From Isoetes taiwanensis (taxonomy: Eukaryota > Streptophyta > Lycopodiopsida > Isoetales > Isoetaceae), in contig JAJEKV010000064.1 of NCBI GenBank assembly GCA_021234155.1, forward strand, positions 4,402,001 through 4,466,000: a stretch of DNA of 64,000 bases, in the 5' to 3' direction. The notes under the pieces are model-generated. The model was not told where the DNA came from and did no database searches. It saw nothing but the letters and a program-made list of their open reading frames with translations. Both the position numbers and the translations under genes were made by a program. This document shows positions 15,428-38,769 of the stretch, piece by piece (the stretch's first letter is position 1; each line of letters starts with the position of its first letter).

Positions 15428-16444
15428 TTAGAAAGAACGACTCTGGCCAGTGAAAGTATGTACTGAGTTATTATAGGCAAACTCAGCTAGCAGAAGATAA
15501 TCAACCCAATCATCCTGCTGATAACTGATAAAGCACCTTAAATATTGCTCCAGAGTCTGATTAATGCGCTCTGCCTTCTCATTACTTTCTGGATGATGAC
15601 TAGATGTCAGTAAGCGATCGATATGCAATAACTCTAAAAGCCGCTTCCAAAAACCTGCGACGAACTATGGTCCACGATTGCTGACGATAGTATCGGGCAA
15701 GACGTGAAGTCTGACTACTTCACGAAGAAGAAGATCCGTTATTCCCTCACTGGTGATGGTGACGTTGCAGGGAATGAAATGAGCCATCTTAGAGAAACGA
15801 TCAACAACCACCATGATGGCATCATAACCCCGAGAGACTGGCAACTCCGGAATAAAGCCTATAGAAATGCTATTCCAAGGTCCATCTGGTACCAGCAGTG
15901 GCTGAAGAAGGCCATGAGGAAGATGCCTTGGGACCTTCGCTCGACAGCAGATGTCACAGGATCGAATAAAAGCTTCAACAGAGCGACGAAGCCCAGGCCA
16001 CCAATACTCTCGACTAATAAGTTCAAGAGTCTTGGCTACTCTAAAGTGTCCGGCCATAGGTGAATCATAGCAAGCCTGAAGAACTCGAAGCGTAGAAGCA
16101 CCATCTGGCATATACAGAAGCCCATCATGGAATAGGAATCCATCTCGAACCTCAAAACGATCATAGTCTGATCGCATTTGCTGAGAAGATGATGAAGAGC
16201 CAAGGTGTGAGAATACGTCTTGAGCCAATGGATCGGAGGGCAGAGATGCTCGAACAGACTCCAACAAGGCCGTATCATGAGGCCTCTCGAACAAAGTGAG
16301 GGCCATACGCTGGAACCGATCAGGCCCTAGAATAACCTGTGATTGCTGATCAAATGCAGGATCACCTAGCTTGGGCTCAAGGTAGGAGCGTCGAGACAAG
16401 GCATCAGGCTTCCCTTGAAGCGATCCAGAACGATACTTGATCAC
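15428..16444 (-). pseudogene. Chromovirus integrase, catalytic residues lost
   Basis: The HHCC region has AGHFRVAKT and CDICCRAK, with the first His apparently replaced by Tyr (QACYDSP). In the core, the usual S-x-D-F reads SIGFIPELP (first Asp to Gly) and the usual S-D-R-G-P reads SNRGP (second Asp to Asn). The Glu segment is present (AERINQTLEQYLR). A frame break near 15.65 kb splits the domain. Two of three DDE residues are therefore missing. Confidence 0.8.
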
Positions 16445-16483
16445 GAAATGAATTCGGGATAATACTTGAGTATGCCACCAGGC

Positions 16484-17495
16484 CTAGCGACGATTGATCA
16501 CTCGAGCAAACTGAAAATATTCTAGATTTCGATGATCTGTGTAGACTGTGACCTTATAAGGAGATCCCTCCAAGAAACGTCTCCACTCCTCGAAAGAATC
16601 CACTATCGCCAACAATTCCTTGTCATAAATGGGATAGTTGATTTCAGCAGCCTGAAACTTCCGTGAGTGATAGGCGATTGGATGCAATTCATGGTCATCC
16701 CCCTCCTGTGACAGGATCCCACCAAGCGCAAAATCAGAAGCATCTACTTCGACAACATATGGGCGCAAAGGATCTGCACGAGCAAGAACTAGCACCGTGG
16801 TGAAAGCATGCTTCAGGATAACGAGAGCAGATTCTGCTTCTACAGTCCATTCAAATGGCATGTCCTTAATCGTGAGGCGTGTCAAAGGAAGGACAATCTC
16901 CAGATAATCATGAATGAAACGCCGATAGAAATTGGCAAACCCAAGAAAACACTGAACATCTCGAACGGATGAAGGTGTTTGCCACTCCAGAACAGTGCTG
17001 ACCTTTTCGGGGTCCATAAGACTCCATGTAGAGTGATGCGATAGCCAAGGAACTCCACATTATCCCGCTCGAATTGACACTTCTCAAGTTTGGCATATAA
17101 CCCATGCTCACGAAGCTTCTGAAGGACATGTCGAACATGCCTCTCATGTTCTTCGAGAGTCTTAGAATAAATAAGAATATCATCCAAATAGATGATAACA
17201 AAAGTGTCTAAGAACTCTCGAAAAACATCATTGGCCATATGCTGGAATATTGTAGGAGCATTGATAAGTCCAAATGGCATAATTGTGTACTCGAAATGGC
17301 CATACCGAGTACGAAAAGTTGTTTTCCACTCCTCATCCTCCCGGATCCAAATAAGATTGTAGGCACCCGGAAGATCAATCTTCGTAAAATAATGCACACC
17401 TTGGAGTCGCTCCAACAACTCTGGGATCAGGGAAGCAGATAACGATTCGGCACTGTGATTTTATTGAGGCTGTGATAATCAACAATCAGCCGTAG
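16484..17495 (-). pseudogene. Chromovirus RT and RNase H
   Basis: RT: SLRLIVDYHSLNKIT near 17.49 kb, then a 1-base deletion, then HYFTKIDLPGAYN, MPFGLINAPTIFQ and the intact box IIYLDDILIYSK. The connection and RNase H follow in the overlapping frame: GFANFYRRFI, then VVEVDASDFALGGILSQ, YDKELLAIV and YTDHRNLEYF. At about 17.50 kb RT homology stops and plus-strand gag begins, marking the inversion junction. Confidence 0.85.
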
Positions 17496-23023: not shown

Positions 23024-26000
23024 CTATGAGGGGGTGTCCCGCACAAGTCCTCTGATATCCTTTTTAACACTATACTGATTTATCCCATCATATAGCCAGG
23101 TCTCCCGTGACCCCACAATACCTGTCAGATTAGCAGCGTTCCATAGGATTTCCTTTAAAACCCTACGATCTCCTTCCCCTGGGTTCGAGATTGTCCGCTT
23201 GAATGCAGTCCAGGAAACCCATCTACCAGCAATCCACAAGTGTTGTAATTGAGTTATTCCACAACTCTTCCACTTGACAAAGATACGAGGGTGTGAGAGG
23301 GCCAAAGGAAGCCCACCACTCTCCCAGATCCTAGTGTTCCAGAATAGACTGAAGCCACCCGCATCCGTAGGGGGATCCATAGGAGAGAAGAGATGTTGCA
23401 CCTGTGACCAAGCATGAAGAATTTTCCGCATAACAGGGGAGGTACTAGGAGCCACCTTAAAATTATAGAACAAAGCACCAAGCTCATCTCTAGGAAGAGA
23501 TGGCTTACCAAGGAGTTTGCCTTGTTTCAACCAATAAGAGACAAATCTCAAAGCAGGGGATGACTCACCTTGTAAAGCTCGCCAGACAAATTTGGCTGCC
23601 AGAGCCTGGGCTTGTAAGAAGGGGTCTTTACAACCCAAACCACCATCTTTCCTATCACGACAGAGTTCGCCCCAGGCCACCTTTGCCATACCTCCCCAGA
23701 TGAATTTCCGGATGATAGTTTGTATTTGGTTATACACCCCCTTCTGGGCGACCATGACTGATGAATAATAAATATGAGAAGCGGAAAGAACCGCATTTGC
23801 AACTGTCACTCGACCAGCTGTAGACAGGCACTTTGTAGACCACAAACCAACCTTTTTCCGGAGTTTATCGAGTATAGGGGCCCAGAGTCATTTAAGACGC
23901 CCCCTCGGCAAACACTGGGGAAGTCCAAGAAGTTTAACTGATTCCCCGGCAGAGACTACAGGGAAGCCCAAACCCCTGGCTCGAGGATCAATAACACATT
24001 CCGTTGGCCAAAGGACAGAGCATTTATTGGCATTGAGGCCAATACCAGAGATAATCTCAAAGGATAACAAGATCTCACGGAATGAGGTAAGGCTGTTGTC
24101 ATCATACCTAAGAAACATAAACGTATCGTCAAGATCTTTGCATGATCGTCGGCTTATCCACCTGGCCCCGGAAAGGTCGGGGCCTTCTAAATTCCCCTCG
24201 GCTACTTTGAGGTGGACCATTCTTGTTAAAAGATTTGCCATGATGAGAAACAGATAGGGGGCAAGGGGGCAGCCTTGCCTTATACCTTTTTTGAGCTTAA
24301 ATAGACCAGAAGGTTGCCCGTTAACCAGCACAGAGGCAGAGGCTAGGTTGTTCATCCCTAGAGCGAGTCGAATGAATTGCTCATCAAATCCCATATAACC
24401 CATAACTGCACGCAATCCTGCCCATCTAAGAGAATCATACGCCTTTCTGAAATCCATCTTTATCATTACACACTTTTGTTTTGAGACCTGACACCAATGC
24501 AACCCTTCCCTGGCTGCGAGGTAATTATCCAGGATATATCTGCCAGGCAAGAAGGCTGATTGCTCCATCCCAATGATCTTATTGAGTATGGGTTTCAATC
24601 GATTGGCAATAGCTTTCATAATCACTTTGTAGATGGCATTAGTAAGAGCAATGGGCCTCCATTCACTCAAAGTTAAAGGCCTGGGAACCTTCGGGACGAG
24701 CGTGATAAAACCAGCTGCCAGGGTAGGATGTAGAGAGCATGAGGCCCACGCACCACAGACTGCCTTAACAAAATCATCCCCGAGAACATCCCAAAATTCG
24801 ACAAAGAATTCAGGGGGGAAACCATCCGGACCAGGAGATTTTCCAGCGGCTAGAGAGCATAGAGTCTTGTAGATCTCATCCCTCTCAAAATTATGGAGTA
24901 GATGTCTATTTTCAGCAGCATTAACCCTCACCCCCCAGTCAATACTGGCCAACCAGGAGTTAATTTGAAGATGGAACGAGGGGGGTAGGGGATCTTCTTC
25001 AAATTGTTTTTCAAAACTTCCACGTATAAAGGACCTGATTTCCTGTGGGTCTTCAAGTACATTGAGATTATCATCCTTCACCGTTACCATACTATTTTCT
25101 GCTAATCTAGCCCCTGCCATCCTGAAGAAACACTTAGAGTTTTCATTGTCTAGTTCAGCATACCATTTGGTTTTGGAGCGGACTGCAGCTCCCCTTGCCT
25201 CCTCCTCCTCTATTGCCTTGGCTTTCCCTTCTAACATCTCCTCTGTATTCTGTTTTGCCATATTATGCGGATCCAATAACAGCTCCTGTTTGACTTCTCT
25301 CAGAAGATTGTAGACTTCATCCTTTTCCCTTTTGAATTCCATAGCTCTATTCCTGCCCCACCCTTTTACCCATCGCTTGATAAGCCCAATCTTTCTAACC
25401 CATCCCTTCATACTATATGTGTTATCAACAGCCGCTAGTGAGGAAGCAAAGACCCTAAAGGGCTTACAGAAAGCCTCCTTCCCCAGCCAGGACGTATTAA
25501 ACTTGAAGGGAATGTTTCCATCCATCCGGGTAGTAGAAACATCTTCTAAGGTTAAACTTTGGGGGACATGATCAGAGTGAGAAAATGCTAACTCACCCTC
25601 AACATAGCACCTGTCCATAAAACCCGCCGACTTATTGGCCATATAGAACCTATCCAACAAGCAGTAAACTCTGTCCTGTCCCTTTTGCTTGTTTGTCCAA
25701 GAAAAGGTGGCATTGGAAGGCGGAACCAAGGCAAATCCAGCATTATCTAGTAATGAATTCCAGGAGGAGTCCTCCTCAGTTGATAGGTTTCTATGTAACC
25801 CTACCTTCTGGTCCCATGTATCAGTCATATTAAAGTCTCCTCCCAGGATCCAATTATCTGTTGTGTTGGCTTGGAGAGAGATCCAGGACTCAATTTCCTT
25901 CCACATGACTGCCCTTTCACCCGGCTTATTAGATGCATAAACATTGAGGATTCCCCAATGACATTTATTCGTTTCAAAGGTAACCACCTGCCATCTCCCA

Positions 26001-26257
26001 TCCCCTGCAGAGTGATAAGTTTTTTGCACTAAACCTTTCCAAAGTATACTTATACCCCCTTTTGTTCCCCTGGCAGCACAGCCGAGGGAGGAATAGTTGT
26101 TGCCGACCCATTTACCCAAAGAGCTTGCCTGGAGGTCAGGGAGCCTGTGTTCCTGAATAATTATAATATCTGCCTTCATGGAACGAATTGCTGCAAGCAC
26201 TCTGCCTCGTTTGAGAACACCCTTTATGCCCCTAAGATTCCAAGAGACGATCTTCAT
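23024..26257 (-). pseudogene. L1 ORF2 endonuclease-reverse transcriptase, one in-frame stop
   Basis: One frame of 1,077 sense and stop codons from ATG at 26257. A single TGA at 23890-23888 divides it into 789 residues and a remainder that resumes directly (LWAPILDKLRKK, then TKCLSTAGRVTVANAV). The endonuclease shows WNLRG, QEHR, GGDFNM and SHSDH, all intact. RT shows GKSPGPDGFPPEFF, RPIALTNAIYK, QSAFLPGR, KMDFRKAYDSL and GIRQGCPLAPYLF. The catalytic box, normally F/Y-A-D-D-T, reads DLDDTFMF: both aspartates are kept but the two residues before them differ. Product is a target-primed retrotransposition enzyme. Confidence 0.85.
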
Positions 26258-27591
26258 ATTAAAAACTACAAGTCAACTTGGAGCACCAGAGATATCATAC
26301 CAGATGAGGGCAAGACCAAAGCCTATAGAGGCCAACAAGGGCACCAGTATCAAGGTAGATAATACCTGTCGTACAATAGCCCACTGCCCCCCATTTCTTA
26401 CCAATCTATAAGGGGAATATGTCAAAGGAAGACCCACCAAGAGATGCAGATCACATGGAGGATAACTCGGGAATCCACGTGTCGCCCCAGGGGCTATAGC
26501 CCACCAGGACCCCCCATGATCCAATGATCCTATAAGAAGTATCATATCAAGCCAAGCGAAACACCTTTTTCTTTTAGGCCCATCATTCCCCCAATACTCT
26601 CCCCTTTGCAATCTCAATTTTTTAAGACCCCCTTGATCACCCCCCCAACCCCTAGCCCACCATGATGTGTTTTCTAGAGAGCCTAGAGGGGAGCGAACCT
26701 CGAAAAGGAGGAGAGAGATGCCCTTTTTGACCCCACTTACCCCTTCTAGGATTGCCCCAAGGGCCATTGTTTCCCCATACCCACAACATTTGTCCCTCCC
26801 CCAAATTAGTCCCATTCTGTTTGGAAAAAGTATCAAAGGAAGAAGGGATCCCATGCTCCCTATAACCAACTGCACCAGAGGAGGCCCATCCCCCCCTAAA
26901 CGCAAAGGATCATAACAGTCAGTGGAGTCACAGTAATGATTTACCCACCATGGTTTAAAATTTTGACCCAATAAATGTAAAGGGATGTCTTTAGGAGAGT
27001 CAACCTTATCTCCACGTCCGCTACAACATTCCCTGTACAAGCCCTCATCTTCCACCCTAATCAAGCCCTTGATGGCTCCTAAAAAGTCAATACAGAAATA
27101 TGATAGTAGAATGAATAAGATCATCCATTCATAACTGGAACAGTTGATTGTAGCCCAAAATTGTAAGGTGTGGAAGGTGTCTATAGTTTTAAATTCCAAC
27201 CTTAATGTGATGCTTGTTCTATTGTACATCAGGACAAGAATAGTAGACAAGTTCATAAAGAGAGCATCCATTAATAGAAGTCTGTTTTCATCACAACAGA
27301 TTACAAAAACTTATCCAAAATAGCACCTGTACTAGAATATGCAGCCCCTGTATCAGAGTGACCGGCATCGAAACCAAAAAGATCAGCATCCCACTGATGG
27401 AAGAGGAAAAAACTTCACCACAGACCCAACCCATCGAATCTGCTTGTGTCCTTAAAGATTCCAGCCCCAAAGGGAGCTTAGAAGACCCAAAAACAGAGCA
27501 TCTAGAAGTAACCAGCTGCTGATAAAATGAGAAACTAACCTGGGAATACAACTCCATTAATCTGATATCCAGCCAACAACTCACAGCCAAA

Positions 27592-30318: not shown

Positions 30319-31003
30319 CCAAATCATATGTGTTGGATAATTCTGTTTTGCTTGACTGAGCTTCTTAAATTCATAAGCACACACATGCCCATCTTGCAGT
30401 AGAGCATCTCCAATATGAGAGGCATCAATTACTAGACAGAATTCTCGTTCATACAAGAAATCTTTAGAATAGGCACCTGCGTCAAGGCATCTTTTAGAAA
30501 TTGAAAACCGCATCCACATCCTTCGGGCCATTGAAATGCTAGACCCTTTGGAATTAAAGTGGTCAGACGAACTGCTTTCTTACAAAATTGAGTAATAAAC
30601 TTGAGATATGATCCAAATAACTCTCGGAATGCCCAGATCTCTTTTACAGATTGAGGTTGTGGCCAAATCATATGTGTTGGATAATTCTGTTTTGCTGAGC
30701 TTCTTAAATTCATAAGCACACACATGCCCATCTTGCAGTAGAGCATCTCCAATATGAGAGGCATGAATTACTAGACAGAATTCTCGTTCATACAAGAAAT
30801 CTTTAGAATAGGCACCTGCGTCAAGGCATCTTTTAGAAATTGAAAACTGCATCCACATCCTTCAGGCCATTGAAATGCTAGACCCTTTGGAATTAAAGTG
30901 GTCAGAGGAACTGCTTTCTTACAAAATTGAGTAATAAACTTGAGATATGATCCAAATAACTCTCGGAATGCCCAGATCCTTTTACAGATTGAGGTTGTGG
31001 CCA
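30319..31003 (-). repeat. 344-bp tandem duplication in RT/RNase H
   Basis: Two adjacent copies, 30319-30662 and 30663-31003, starting CCAAATCATATGTGTTGG. They differ at only a handful of positions plus a 4-base and a 1-base indel. The duplication spans the RNase H start and RT connection. A third, more diverged relative covers 31715-31960. Confidence 0.9.
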
Positions 31004-33492: not shown

Positions 33493-35380
33493 AATAAAAA
33501 ACCTAATAAACTATAAAACTATAAGCAACGGTTAAAACAGTCGCTATAGTAGGAGCGATCAAAATTATCAACAACATCAAAAGATGGACGGATCCGGAAG
33601 TTGGTCGAAAGGCCTGGCTATAGGCCGAATAAGTAGGTAGTCAAATTTAAACTAAAGGAAACCTAATTGACCTAAAAGGCAAAGCCTTTCCAAAAGCTAT
33701 GAACATTGTACGAACTTTCCAATTCCAAAAGTATGGATGGAGAAGCTAGTGAAAAGCTTGTTTCGTAAAGTTCAATTGCCAATTAGAAAGTCACGTCTTG
33801 TTTGAGCCTTATTCCTGCATTTTTGAATATCCCAAAGAAGTTATTCAGTTGGATTAATAGATTCTCAGAATTGGAAAGAATTAGAGATCGTGTTTGCAGC
33901 ATTCGCAAGTCTGAGCGTAGTTGGGTGGTGAATTTGTGCCATAAGACGTGTTTGACAATTTTGGAGAAAGAAGAGCACAATCATAACAGACTTCCATTTG
34001 CAATCCATTGACATAGTTTCACAAGAGTTCACTGATATTGTTGATATGGGAATCCAGATGAGTAAACTTCAAATTGTAATCAGGTACCATTTCATATTCT
34101 TCTTGTTTTACTTGATCCCATTCCTTCTACATAATTCTATAATAATTTACATATAAATGATTCGCTTCAAAAGCATTTTCGAACTCAGATCATAGTTTCA
34201 GATACCTTAATGCGCTCGAAGAACTTCTCCCATTCCAACAAACAGATAGCTTGTATTGGTTTCACACCCATGCCTCCATTGAAATAAGGCATATCTATTT
34301 TTTCTCACCTTAAGCTTGTGTTTCGGTTTGGGTTGACGTTTTGGATCCATTGTTGACTAGTTTGTGTAGTAGATACACAGGACCTAAAAAGTCATTTGCA
34401 CAATCCATATTTCTTGGGCGTAAGAAGTCATTCTCACAAACCATATCTCTTGGAGCTATTTACAGCATCTACTAGAACAACCGGATGATCTTGATCAAGA
34501 GGTGGGAGAGAAATTATTGGGGGAGCATATTTGATAGTGGAGGGGCAAAGGATTTATTGTATTAAATGTCAAAATTGGACTATGCTAATGTCTATTTGTG
34601 CAAGATTTGGCAAGGAATTATATGCTATTGCCATACCTTTTCTCATTTAATTCATTCAAGTTTATACCTTTCTGCATGTGCCTTTCCCTTGCCTGAGCTT
34701 CCACTTTTTACTCATACAAATAGTGCGAGGTATTATTTTCACATTAGTTTTATTATACTATACAAGAATTTGGCGCCGGCGGAGCCGGCGCTCTGTGCAC
34801 CCTTGACGACTGAACCTAAGTTCGATGGTTAAATTTAAGAGTAAATATCAACGGTCTGTAATCTGGCTCGGCATAAAAGATAAGCACAGTGAACTTAGCT
34901 TAATCTTCTAGCCTTCCTCGAACCTTGGTCCTCCTCTTTGGGTAACCAAGGTATGTATTTGTCTGTACATCGATTTGGATAAGTATAGTCCTCGTGAAAG
35001 AGAAAGTATTTGTTGTTAAGGGCTAATATTTGGGTAGTGGTTGTGTGTTGTGTAATGCATGTGGTGGTGGTAATGTGGTGTGCGTATTGTAATACATATG
35101 TAGTGGAACGGTGTGTTTTAGTATAGTGCATGTATGATGTGTGATGTGTGTAGTATAGTGTTTGTAATGCATGGGTAGTTGTGAGTTATTGGGGGTAGCT
35201 ATACGGTTGGGTTTAAGTTGTCTTAGCCATGCATTTGGCAAATTTTATTCTTCAATTCCGGCATCATCAATTTCTTTAACTCTTCCGTTTTGACACCTCA
35301 GGACAATTGAGATAAAATTTCCCTTATCGTAAACCACGAGTACCCTATGATTTCCGCTTTTTTTCCTGTGTTTTTATTTT
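33493..35380. other. No gene; GC palindrome and TG-rich low-complexity tract
   Basis: 34773-34791 is a GC palindrome (GCGCCGGCGGAGCCGGCGC). 35020-35180 is a TG-rich low-complexity tract (GTGGTGGTGG, ATGATGTGTGATGTGTGTAG). A 69-codon plus ORF at 33802-34011 has no recognised family. Confidence 0.4.
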
Positions 35381-35439
35381 TTGGAAATTTTTTCGTTTCC
35401 TACTCTAAGCGGCGCCGCTCATACTTTAATTTCCTACAC

Positions 35440-35650
35440 TACCAAATTCAAACATTCAAAGGTTTTCGCATTCAAAGGTTTTCCATTCAAATTCAAAGGT
35501 TTTAAAACAGTACATTCAAAGGTTTTCCATTCAAAGGTTTTAAAACAGTACATCAAAATCATCACAACAGCTGAATTTGAATCAAGTAGCAAAAGCTGAA
35601 TCAAGTTTCAAAAAGCTGAATCAAGTTTGAATCAAGTTTCAAAAGCTGAA
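35440..35650. repeat. Short tandem repeats downstream of the recombinase gene
   Basis: Repeated ATTCAAAGGTTTTCCATTCAAA and TTTTAAAACAGTACAT units, then AAGCTGAATCAAGTTT units reaching to the stop codon of the recombinase gene. Probably in its 3' UTR. Confidence 0.75.
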
Positions 35651-35656
35651 TTTCCA

Positions 35657-37938
35657 TCAAGCAGCATTTTTCTTCATGTATTCGGCATCTGATGCAAGAA
35701 CAAATGTGCAATTATTGAATGTTGCACCCACAAATGACTGGCCACCTGCATAAACAAAAACTAGGTTATTTTGATCAATTTGAAAACATGTTCCAAATCA
35801 GAATAAAAATTAACAATAATGAGAAAACTTACCATAGTTTTGCACAATAGTCTGTTCTCCAGGAAAGTATTTTGCTAGCGAAGGTGTGCGTCTGATCATT
35901 TCTTCAAGCATGTCGTTATCAAAATCATCAGCAGTAACTGGTTTTACAGTATTTCCTGAAACTTGAATTACAGACTTATTGGCGCCAGTTTTTAAATCAA
36001 CAGGAACTTTGACAGGAGCTGTAAGGTAATCATCTGTTGGAGCAGCAACATTGTCTGCAAGAAACCAACTACAAATTAACATTTGGAAAACTACTAATGA
36101 TTTAAAAAAGGTACTAAAGGTTTCCAAAATTTACCTGTAATCGTAGTATGATCATGAACATCAGCAACGTTATCCGTAAGAAAAAACCTAGCCAAAATTA
36201 CATAGGAAAGTGAAACTAGGAAACTGAAACTAAGAAACTACTAGGAAACTGAAACTAGGAAAACAAACTAGGAAAATAAACTAACCTGCAATTGAAGTTT
36301 GACCGTCAACCAGAACCTTTGAAGAATGGTTTCCCATTAAGCCCTTCTCCTTCTCTTTAATCATTTCATTTAAAACATCAGGATACAACCTTAGACTACC
36401 ATCCTCATTGTAAGGTTTGCTCAAAATATTCATCGCAGCATTAACTTGGATTTCCTTGCTCCGGTCGTACCTATTAGAACACAAAATTACAACTGCATGA
36501 AAGGAAACAGACAAACAAATAAATAAATAAAAACTTACTTTTCGTATGCAGTCGTCGTCCTATGACCTGTTACAAGCTTTCCAATTTCTGGTGGAACTAG
36601 ACCAAGCGACATTCTTGTAACAGCAGATACACGTCCACTTTTATTACAAATGTCAACGTCCAACAAAGACCCCATGTATGTTATCCACTTGGCAAGATTG
36701 TTTTTTCCTACTCGAGATTTCTGAAACCAGACCTGCAAGAGAGTAAACAATTAAAAACAAAATAATAAACAATGCATAGGAAAAAGGAAAACCAACGTAC
36801 CTGACCGCGAAAGTTCGTAATCGCCTGACAGAAAAACCACTTTGGTTTATCATTTTCTTTTCCAGGTAAATGACGAGTATACTGTTTATATGTTAACACA
36901 AAGTCATTCTCAAAGCTCCATATTGGTGGTCTGAAATGGCTATCATCAAACCGGGTCACAGAAATCCCCCACGTCTTACTTTTTCTCTCATTATACAGCA
37001 GATATTCATTGCTGCCATCAAATTCCAAACTCAAGTCTACATCCTTCACATCATAAAGTTCCTGAGCACCTCTGATAGCAAATCTACTGACCAAATAAAA
37101 GCACAGTCGCTTCAAAATCCCTTTTGGATGTGTGATCTGATAATCTATATCAGCCAATAAATCCTGCTCTGTGCTATAAGAAATTGGCTGTGCTTTCTTT
37201 TTCTTTACACCAATACCTAAAGCTCTAGCTTTTGATGCCATGTGAACAAATGCTAATCTAGTAGTACCAAACAGATCATCTTTCAGAATGTTAAATCTTG
37301 CCTCCCTTTCTCCAGTAGCATTAATTCTTGCTTCTTGCTTTTTCCTGATAATCCTTCCTATTGACTTCAGTAAGCAATGCAGACTACAACAGAAAACAGT
37401 AAGTCAGAAACAATCAAGAAATAGAAATAAAAGAAATCAAAAGAATTTACCTGGAGGCAGGGTATAGAGTGCCGTCTTTCTTTCTAGTTTGTAAAAGAAA
37501 TTTAACAAGCATCTTATTCAACTCGAGCATGTTGAGATCTTCAAGTGGCATACTTGTGTCAAGTTTCTCAAACCTTCTCCATCCATCAAACTTACGTCTA
37601 GCCCAGTTGGTAAGTTTCTTGGACTTGTCTTCGCCCCCCTTTTCAATTTCAGAGACAGTTTTCTCATCAAGCTTCAAAAACTCCTTAAACTCTTCATCAT
37701 TTGGTGCCTTAAGATCATCAGTGTACACTGTCCCCTCTTTAAACCATGGCTCATTTCCAAGATCTTGCAACATCAACTCGACTGCAGCAGGATCCGTGCA
37801 TCCAACAAGCTCACAGTCTTCTTCATTTATGAGTGTAAACGAAGGACTGATACTAGCAGAGCAGTTAGAAACTGCATGTCCAGAAAGTAAACTCAAGCTA
37901 AGTAGAACACTAATAAACCTTTTAGCAACAAGAGACAT
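35657..37938 (-). CDS. Crypton-type (DUF3504) tyrosine recombinase, six coding exons, intact
   Basis: Exons on minus: 37938-37451, 37383-36801, 36732-36539, 36470-36286, 36054-35833, 35745-35657. All have GT-AG ends and join in frame to 586 residues. The N-terminal core-binding part includes LNKMLVKFLLQTRKKDGT. The catalytic part includes FNILKDDLF, FYLVSRFAIRGAQEL and YLLYNERKSKT, then NKSGRVSAVTRM and VTGHRTTTAYEKYDRS. Likely catalytic residues are Arg267, Arg391, His414 and Tyr423; the His of the HxxR box is Lys388. The gaps Arg391-His414-Tyr423 (23 and 9) equal those in Cre. The order of motifs matches the ZMYM2/QRICH1-type DUF3504 domain derived from Cryptons. Expected activity is DNA strand exchange through a 3'-phosphotyrosine; whether it is still mobile or a domesticated gene is unknown. 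Oddities: a signal-peptide-like first 24 residues, and a C-terminal GATFNNCTFVLA. An in-frame stop lies just upstream of the ATG. Confidence 0.85.
36135..36173 (-). pseudogene. Duplicated micro-exon with broken splice acceptor
   Basis: 39 bases between coding exons 4 and 5 of the recombinase gene, encoding in phase NVADVHDHTTIT after a shared Asp codon. They resemble the start of the next exon (DNVAAPTDDYLTA). The donor GTAAAT is present. The acceptor reads TTACGG where TTACAG is expected, a single A-to-G change. Inclusion would keep the frame. Confidence 0.5.
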
Positions 37939-38029
37939 CTTGAAACCTGCATGCAGCACAAGGAAAACAAATGTTAGTACAGAAACATGACAAAGAATTA
38001 CAGTTAACAAAAAATCAGAGGATATTACC

Positions 38030-38158
38030 TCAAAAATGTATAAGAAGTCGCCTGGAACCCGCAAGTTACCGAGATTAGCCAAAAAACTTCGAGAAACAAT
38101 GAGATTTAACGCCAAAACACCGCACGGACTCGCTCCAAACGAAGATTCACCTACAAAA
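38030..38158 (-). other. Probable 5' UTR exon of the recombinase gene
   Basis: On minus, TTTTGTAG precedes GTGAATCTTCG (acceptor-like) and TTTTTGAG is followed by GTAATATCC (donor). It would splice to the acceptor CATGCAG at about 37947, eight bases before the ATG. Translation of the exon in the ATG frame hits TGA at the junction, so it is untranslated. Confidence 0.5.
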
Positions 38159-38550
38159 CAGAAAAGAAACACATTAGCTCATAAAAAATGCAAGAAAACT
38201 AAAGAAAACTAAAGAATCCAGCCAAATATAAGCGCCGACGAGCGCCCTCCAAGAACCTCTGCAAAAATCCTCTGCTGCTCTGCTACTCTATTTCTCAGAA
38301 AAATCAAGAACATTCGTAAAAGAAAATGCTCCAAACGAAGATTCACCTACAAAACACAAAAACAAACACATTAGCTCGTAAAAAACTAAAGAAAACTAAA
38401 GAAAACTAAGGAATCCAGCGAAACACGACCTTGGCGACCTCAATCGGCTTGAAGCGCCGACGAGCGCCCTCCGGGAACCTCCGCAAAAATCGTCTGCTCC
38501 TCTGCTACTCTGTTTTTCTCAGAAAAGAACTTTCGTGAATGAAAAGCTGA
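38133..38550. repeat. Tandem duplication (206-bp offset) in the recombinase 5' region
   Basis: CTCCAAACGAAGATTCACCTAC at 38133 recurs at 38339. Both are followed by ACACATTAGCTC, AAAGAAAACTAA, GCGCCGACGAGCGCCCTCC and CTCTGCTACTCT. The unit includes the edge of the 5' UTR exon, so two copies of a possible first-exon/promoter segment exist. Confidence 0.85.
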
Positions 38551-38609
38551 CGTGGAAAAGTTTGCCACGTGTCCGGAAATCATAGGGCACGCGTGGCTTA
38601 CGTTTTGCA

Positions 38610-38711
38610 ACGTGCCACCAATCGGTGGTTTCCAGTTGGAAATCGGGTGGCGGCGCCGCCACTCGCGCCGCCACCCGGTTTCCAGCTGGAAACCACCTCT
38701 TGGTGGCACGT
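38610..38711. repeat. Long near-perfect hairpin upstream of the recombinase gene
   Basis: Left arm 38610-38656 (ACGTGCCACCAATCGGTGG ...) pairs with right arm 38665-38711 with about four mismatches. Each arm contains a smaller palindrome, such as GGTTTCCAGCTGGAAACC in the right arm. A further palindrome (GTGGCGGCGCCGCCAC) sits at the left-arm tip. It lies about 450 bases upstream of the probable 5' UTR exon. Confidence 0.85.
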
Positions 38712-38769
38712 TACCAAATACTAAGAATCAAGATTGCGCGATTAGCGCCAAGCTTAGAGCTCAAGGCTA

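Follow-up and report, generated by a model that had tools for sequence, protein, structure and literature searches.

A window of 64,000 nucleotides (the whole stretch of DNA analysed here) from the lycophyte Isoetes taiwanensis holds a tyrosine recombinase gene, and it raises the question of whether this gene belongs to a mobile element or has been domesticated, a choice that a sequence-only reading of the locus had left open. We have determined that it belongs to a mobile element, by its dispersed copies, exact common ends, deletions and empty sites. The element is present in many copies with exact common ends and unrelated flanks, it inserts at one point, and internally deleted copies carry the same ends. 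We consider it very probable that the locus is a DNA transposon of ~3.4 kb in a lycophyte, with a Crypton-type tyrosine recombinase as its one recognised protein and with a DIRS1-like arrangement of its ends. The coordinates 35657-37938 given in the earlier reading hold for the gene but not for the mobile element, which extends over 35328-38721 (Table 1).

We rebuilt the recombinase gene from the sequence. Its six exons lie on the minus strand and, as had been proposed, can be joined without a frame break to give 586 codons and a stop (1761 nt); the five introns are all GT..AG. The related copies support the predicted exon model: in 10 of them, 98 of the 98 readable splice dinucleotides agreed with the window (2 of 100 were gapped), against 1860 of 2193 control dinucleotides (85%) within the introns of the same copies. 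Intron 4 contains, at 36135-36175 of the minus strand, ~40 bases that resemble the start of exon 5 (DNVADVHDHTTIT versus DNVAAPTDDYLTA), with a donor present and with ACG as acceptor versus CAG in exon 5; this stretch resembles a duplicated exon that has decayed. Eight bases ahead of the start codon (37939-37960, minus strand) there is a good 3' splice acceptor (tgcatgcag), and stretches upstream of the gene, in 38132-38525, are duplicated, so that a spliced 5' leader is possible. The N-terminal stretch of the recombinase (37938-37850, minus strand; FISVLLSLSLLSGHAV) is hydrophobic and signal-peptide-like, which is odd for a nuclear enzyme.

The window protein matched Pfam PF12012 (DUF3504) with 16 bits (E 0.013; cut-off 29.7) and PF25561 (QRICH1 domain) with 15.1 bits (E 0.025; cut-off 30.8). 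These two matches are collinear and stand in the order of the family, and both lie under the curated cut-offs; Pfam by itself would not have settled the family of this protein. The DUF3504 profile was made from the best 120 of 823 matches at E <= 0.001, among 1548 candidates. These 120 proteins, fetched with a typed, consensus-like sequence, are one DUF3504 group chosen by likeness to that one sequence, and many of them are also labelled PF00589. An HMM of these 120 DUF3504/Crypton-type recombinases aligned residues 85-450 of the window protein with 104.6 bits, while the best of 200 shuffles reached 3.2 bits and the reversed protein -1.9. With this score and the conserved catalytic positions, the assignment to the DUF3504 or Crypton-type tyrosine recombinases, made earlier from motifs, is borne out.

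Arg267, Arg391, His414 and Tyr423 were found where the sequence-only reading had placed them, and its gaps of 23 and 9 are correct. The same residue is shared by 118 of the 120 relatives at R267, 119 at K299, 116 at R391, 116 at H414 and 113 at Y423. In terms of the Crypton tetrad R-H-R-Y, R267, R391 and Y423 are present and the tetrad histidine is replaced by Lys388. This column, the histidine of HxxR, is His in 115 of the 120 relatives and Lys in none, and the element reads KxxR; accordingly, recombinase activity is not proven. Direct Pfam matches in the genome (L001 and L002) are both degraded and represent a second DUF3504 family, apparently with introns. The open stretches of L002, taken end to end, showed 28% identity to the window protein, and L002 reads NKTLR where the window protein has NKSGR, indicating that Lys replaces His in two divergent families of the Isoetes genome.

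Wider searches gave no confirmed match. In a set of 5.8 billion proteins, with ~8000 candidates scored each time, no homologue was found by the single-sequence search at E <= 0.01 or by a three-sequence Isoetes alignment at E <= 0.1, and a sequence search of the PDB with the recombinase gave no match at E <= 1. The DUF3504 alignment led by the window protein gave 6 pattern matches in prokaryote genomes and 30 in viral contigs, with 0 confirmed in either.

Table 1. Coordinates of the mobile element and of its recombinase gene within the window.
Feature	Position	Strand	Details	Basis
Whole mobile element	35328..38721	gene strand -		ends common to copies with unrelated flanks; empty sites of other copies
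Left end	35328..35356	+	CGTAAACCACGAGTACCCTATGATTTCCG	repeated occurrence in the genome
Inner inverted copy of left end	38574..38602	-	26/29 positions match	
Right-end hairpin	38603..38721	+	ends GGTGGCACGTTACCAAATAC; length of centre varies between copies	folding
Exon 1	37451..37938	-	start codon at 37938	reconstructed from sequence; frame and splice sites compared across copies
Exon 2	36801..37383	-	Arg267 (37073-37071), Lys299 (36977-36975)	reconstruction and alignment
Exon 3	36539..36732	-	Lys388 (36642-36640; in place of HxxR histidine), Arg391 (36633-36631), His414 (36564-36562)	
Exon 4	36286..36470	-	Tyr423 (36469-36467)	reconstruction and alignment
Exon 5	35833..36054	-		reconstruction and splice-site agreement between copies
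Exon 6 and stop	35657..35745	-	FNNCTF motif at end, resembling the FxNCxV motif of the DUF3504 set	reconstruction and alignment

The window covers bases 4402001-4466000 of its contig, and the genome searched has 1110 contigs that add up to 1,658,258,908 bases. When 35300-38750 was used as a DNA query, it gave at least 113 matches (40 of 320 candidates were scored), which we counted as ~36 places holding the element whole or in part. Copies with intact ends start at one base (window 35328) and stop at one base (38721), and their flanks are unrelated except for places that were duplicated together with their flanks (L054 with L055; L045 to L048). For this comparison, 22 left and 17 right junctions with differing flanks were used. 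The first 27 bases of the left end occur with <=2 mismatches at 57 genome sites (control 0), some of which are inner inverted copies of related short elements, and an exact search with the last 20 bases of the element found 14 sites (control 0). Internally deleted copies of ~790-1055 bp (L053-L056) retained both ends, L057 retained the left end and most of the right end, and the L050/51 copy is broken up by other DNA. Two copies on different contigs, L034 and L040, differ by 1-2% outside the exons, indicating that movement was recent on that scale.

Short copies of other subfamilies (L070, L071, L073 and L074) are 438-563 bp long. In 4 of the 5 short copies fetched, the left end, inner copy, hairpin and right end are kept; for L072, the right end was not found and a differing sequence stands at the position of the hairpin. 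The short elements L070-L074 have left ends with CACGGG and the same end architecture as the main element.

We examined the window copy and 13 others for coding capacity. An open frame is present in 3 of these 14 copies (the window copy, L033 and L034, the latter two with small in-frame length differences), and the other 11 have stops or frameshifts. The dN/dS values were 0.14 for window-L034, 0.20 for L033-L034 and 0.50 for window-L033. Between the window copy and L034 there are 23 amino acid changes against a neutral expectation of 51.0, and 0 of 2000 simulations were as low; between the window copy and L033 there are 10 against 14.6, and 2% of the simulations were as low. The protein has been retained by selection.

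The plant-like character of the host genome, also proposed from the letters alone, is supported by a DUF1191 gene at 644-1681 of the window. Contamination was ruled out: the window lies with this gene on an 8.3 Mb contig (C1072), and other copies sit on contigs of many Mb. In the rest of the window, the segment 8001-14000 showed a GC content of 51-61%, compared with ~35-48% for most of the window, and contains long frames, one with a YADD motif; it is perhaps a GC-rich retroelement. A LINE-type endonuclease and reverse transcriptase are located at 23891-26272 (minus strand), and 15668-17460 (minus strand) contains a reverse transcriptase that looks gypsy-like by eye and has an integrase zinc-binding domain close to it. 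A 299-bp sequence occurs twice in direct orientation at 30346-30983, with 97% identity and the starts 339 bp apart, within retroelement-like coding sequence. Rfam at gathering scores and ARAGORN gave no match in the window.

The sites without the element show how it inserts. We joined 130 bases of the left and right flanks of 14 insertions and searched the genome for empty sites; empty relatives exist for six insertions, and 12 empty sequences were read. In 8 of these, from five insertions, exactly one nucleotide stands between the flanks (four of the 8 belong to L053, and one L050/51 sequence is among them). This nucleotide is C for L053, L033, L042/43 and L050/51 and T for L052. The C is also present in the empty sequences L060 and L066, where the adjoining bases differ slightly. 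In the two L036 sequences, a C takes the place of the first A of the right flank with the length unchanged, so that this site is ambiguous to the base. Target duplication was found in none of the 12 empty sequences of the six insertions. Insertion at one point and without target duplication fits a tyrosine recombinase and not a DDE transposase.

The junctions of the filled sites allowed us to assign the outermost bases. The filled L052 site has T as its leftmost base, like its target, and its right end still reads AAATAC; accordingly, it is the target that supplies the leftmost base and the element that supplies the right end ...CAAATAC, and we take base 35328 to be target-derived and the element proper to be 35329-38721. 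AAATAC is the element end in 16 of 17 right junctions (L035 is mis-set). Other ends were read in three further copies: AAATAG in L044, AAATAT in L071 and AAGTAC in L073. The right flank is A-rich: position 1 is A in 16 of 19 copies and position 3 in 18 of 19, a count that includes L035 and L057, whose weak right-end matches are not trusted. Among 16 flank pairs, 13 showed no match at the junction and 3 a match of 2-3 nt; in L038, the 7-base sequence CCCTTAT is repeated close to the two junctions but not at them.

The right part of the element has a distinct architecture: the inner inverted copy of the left end is followed at once by a hairpin, which extends as far as the right end. The inner inverted copy matched better than 40 of 40 shuffles in 21 of 24 copies; L047, L048 and L054 failed, and L049 and L056 passed by one position only. 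The same three positions differ between inner copy and left end in at least seven copies, indicating that the inner copy is not renewed from the ends, contrary to the templating model. The hairpin was folded in 17 of 22 copies, those in which both landmarks were present, and in all 17 it is ~4 or more standard deviations more stable than 50 shuffles. The bases of its outermost stem pair in 14 of these copies and stay unpaired in L045, L047 and L048, and the hairpin stretch measures 46 to 130 nt across copies. The two extreme ends do not form inverted repeats with each other, the inverted copy of the left end being located 119 nt before the right end; with this inner position and no target duplication, terminal inverted repeats of a DDE transposon were ruled out.

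Such an architecture recalls DIRS elements, and the locus might accordingly be a shortened DIRS-type retrotransposon that no longer has a reverse transcriptase and depends on a full-length relative for its copying. The inverted internal copies beside the right end are DIRS1-like, and insertion without target duplication is also described for DIRS1 (both in passages of PMC3266345). However, the introns are retained in 10 of 10 copies aligned, the internal copies differ from the ends, the recombinase is of the DUF3504 type, and the copies with both ends mapped are ~3.2-3.8 kb long or shorter. No reverse transcriptase, RNase H or methyltransferase was found in the window copy, by Pfam on the gene, which gave the weak DUF3504 and QRICH1 matches as its sole result, and by eye in the other frames. 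We therefore consider this explanation improbable.

A domesticated Crypton gene that serves the plant, as ZMYM2 or QRICH1 serve animals, would account for the open frame, the introns and the purifying selection. However, animal DUF3504 genes have lost both the catalytic Tyr and the second Arg (as stated in passages of PMC3212892), and these residues are kept here. Moreover, the ~36 places with common ends, empty sites and deletion derivatives speak against domestication, which we regard as very unlikely. Helitrons have a 3' hairpin, no target duplication, TC...CTRR ends and A^T targets, and the first two of these features recall the element, but that a Helitron or a DDE transposon carries the recombinase gene by chance is hardly credible, as the ends do not read TC...CTRR, the targets differ from A^T, selection acts on the recombinase in copies from different loci, and there is no duplication of the kind made by DDE enzymes.

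We return to a DNA transposon that is probably moved by its own recombinase. All 10 copies aligned retain the introns, and the element therefore most likely moves as DNA and not as spliced RNA. During movement, the recombinase would join both ends of the element, probably as a circle, and the joined ends would then be exchanged with the target 3' of a pyrimidine and ahead of A-rich sequence. The inner inverted copy and the adjoining hairpin may hold the ends side by side, as has been proposed for the internal complementary regions of DIRS1, and may be recognised by the recombinase. On the minus strand, bases 38574 to ~38630 look like the right end followed by the left end, and thus resemble a circle junction. 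A search of the assembly with one exact pattern found no circle or tandem junction.

With a standard tyrosine recombinase, which has a spacer of 6-8 bp, either spacer may remain at either junction. Among the copies examined, none was seen with an exchanged 6-8 bp spacer, and the junctions showed the target side on the left and AAATAC on the right, save in L044, L071 and L073. This pattern is expected when one strand is exchanged and replication finishes the reaction, and equally when the overlap is a single base, and it does not tell these two apart. Because the exchanged spacer is unseen, the right ends read AAATAC and the left junctions are target-derived at the empty sites, we tentatively suggest, as a possibility on the doubtful side, that a Crypton-type recombinase acts here on a folded single strand, with the ends lying side by side, one strand exchanged and replication completing the insertion. 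In this case, the left end would pair with the inner inverted copy, and the right end would fold into the neighbouring hairpin. Integron cassettes are inserted by exchange of one strand, which replication completes (according to passages of PMC2727003).

The passages of the Crypton survey used here (PMC3212892) list elements from animals, fungi, oomycetes and a diatom, and the green lineage is represented in them by nothing more than the name Chlamydomonas in the legend to a figure and a mitochondrial DUF3504 gene of a green alga. In PMC11630846 and PMC8729191, plant papers with the word Crypton, the passages concerned are class lists or automatic counts only, and the word occurs in some further plant papers as well. 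The words Crypton, DIRS and tyrosine recombinase are absent from the main text of the Isoetes taiwanensis paper (PMC8566536), and Crypton and DIRS from that of the I. sinensis paper (PMC10541799). Concerning DIRS1-like elements, a passage of the DIRS1 overview (PMC3266345) describes green plants as lacking them, and a passage of PMC4157794 reports Dirs1-like elements in Viridiplantae. The literature considered here consists of open-licence papers in PubMed Central. Our study describes an element of a land plant whose ends are exactly defined, for which empty sites exist, and whose protein is kept by selection and has an open frame in some copies. As suggested in a section of PMC4157794, DIRS elements may have arisen when a Crypton combined with an LTR element. 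The present element, which unites DIRS1-like ends with a recombinase of the Crypton type, makes this idea testable and suggests that the end architecture may predate the reverse transcriptase. If the recombinase does act on a folded strand, the element would stand as a living intermediate between Cryptons and DIRS elements, and its insertion would be a eukaryotic equivalent of that of integron cassettes.

In comparison with known systems, the element resembles the Cryptons of the DUF3504 group (CryptonA) in having a single DUF3504-type tyrosine recombinase and in being a DNA element without reverse transcriptase. Described Cryptons have short direct repeats at their termini (in passages of PMC3212892), whereas terminal direct repeats of 4-6 bp are absent here; accordingly, we do not file the element as a canonical Crypton and call it a Crypton-like DNA transposon with DIRS1-like ends. 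It also differs from Cryptons in its inner inverted end copy and end hairpin, in KxxR in place of HxxR, and in its lycophyte host. In DIRS1, the left and right internal complementary regions adjoin near the 3' end and the ends pair to them, and a circle is formed and then inserted at a 3-bp core without target duplication (as passages of PMC3266345 describe). On the one hand, the element shares with DIRS1 the inverted copies of left and right ends side by side near the right end, although these pairs are imperfect, and it likewise inserts at a very short core without duplicating its target. On the other hand, reverse transcriptase, RNase H and methyltransferase are absent from the window copy, the outer ends are not inverted repeats of each other, the internal copies are not identical to the ends, the introns are kept, and the core is 1 nt (C in four clear sites, T in one) versus 3 nt in DIRS1. 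The likeness to integron cassettes is one of working and not of membership: both combine a tyrosine recombinase with a hairpin site, the hairpin resembles attC in its paired outer stem, unpaired bases and terminal part of variable length, and the junctions fit a single crossover point. Unlike the cassettes, the element is eukaryotic, encodes its own recombinase, has dispersed targets and carries a hairpin at one end only; its use of a single strand is hypothetical, the hairpin shape being what was observed. Finally, ZMYM2, QRICH1, KIAA1958 and other DUF3504 genes belong to the same domain family, but these are domesticated and without the catalytic residues (in passages of PMC3212892), whereas the element of Isoetes taiwanensis is mobile and keeps R, R, H and Y.
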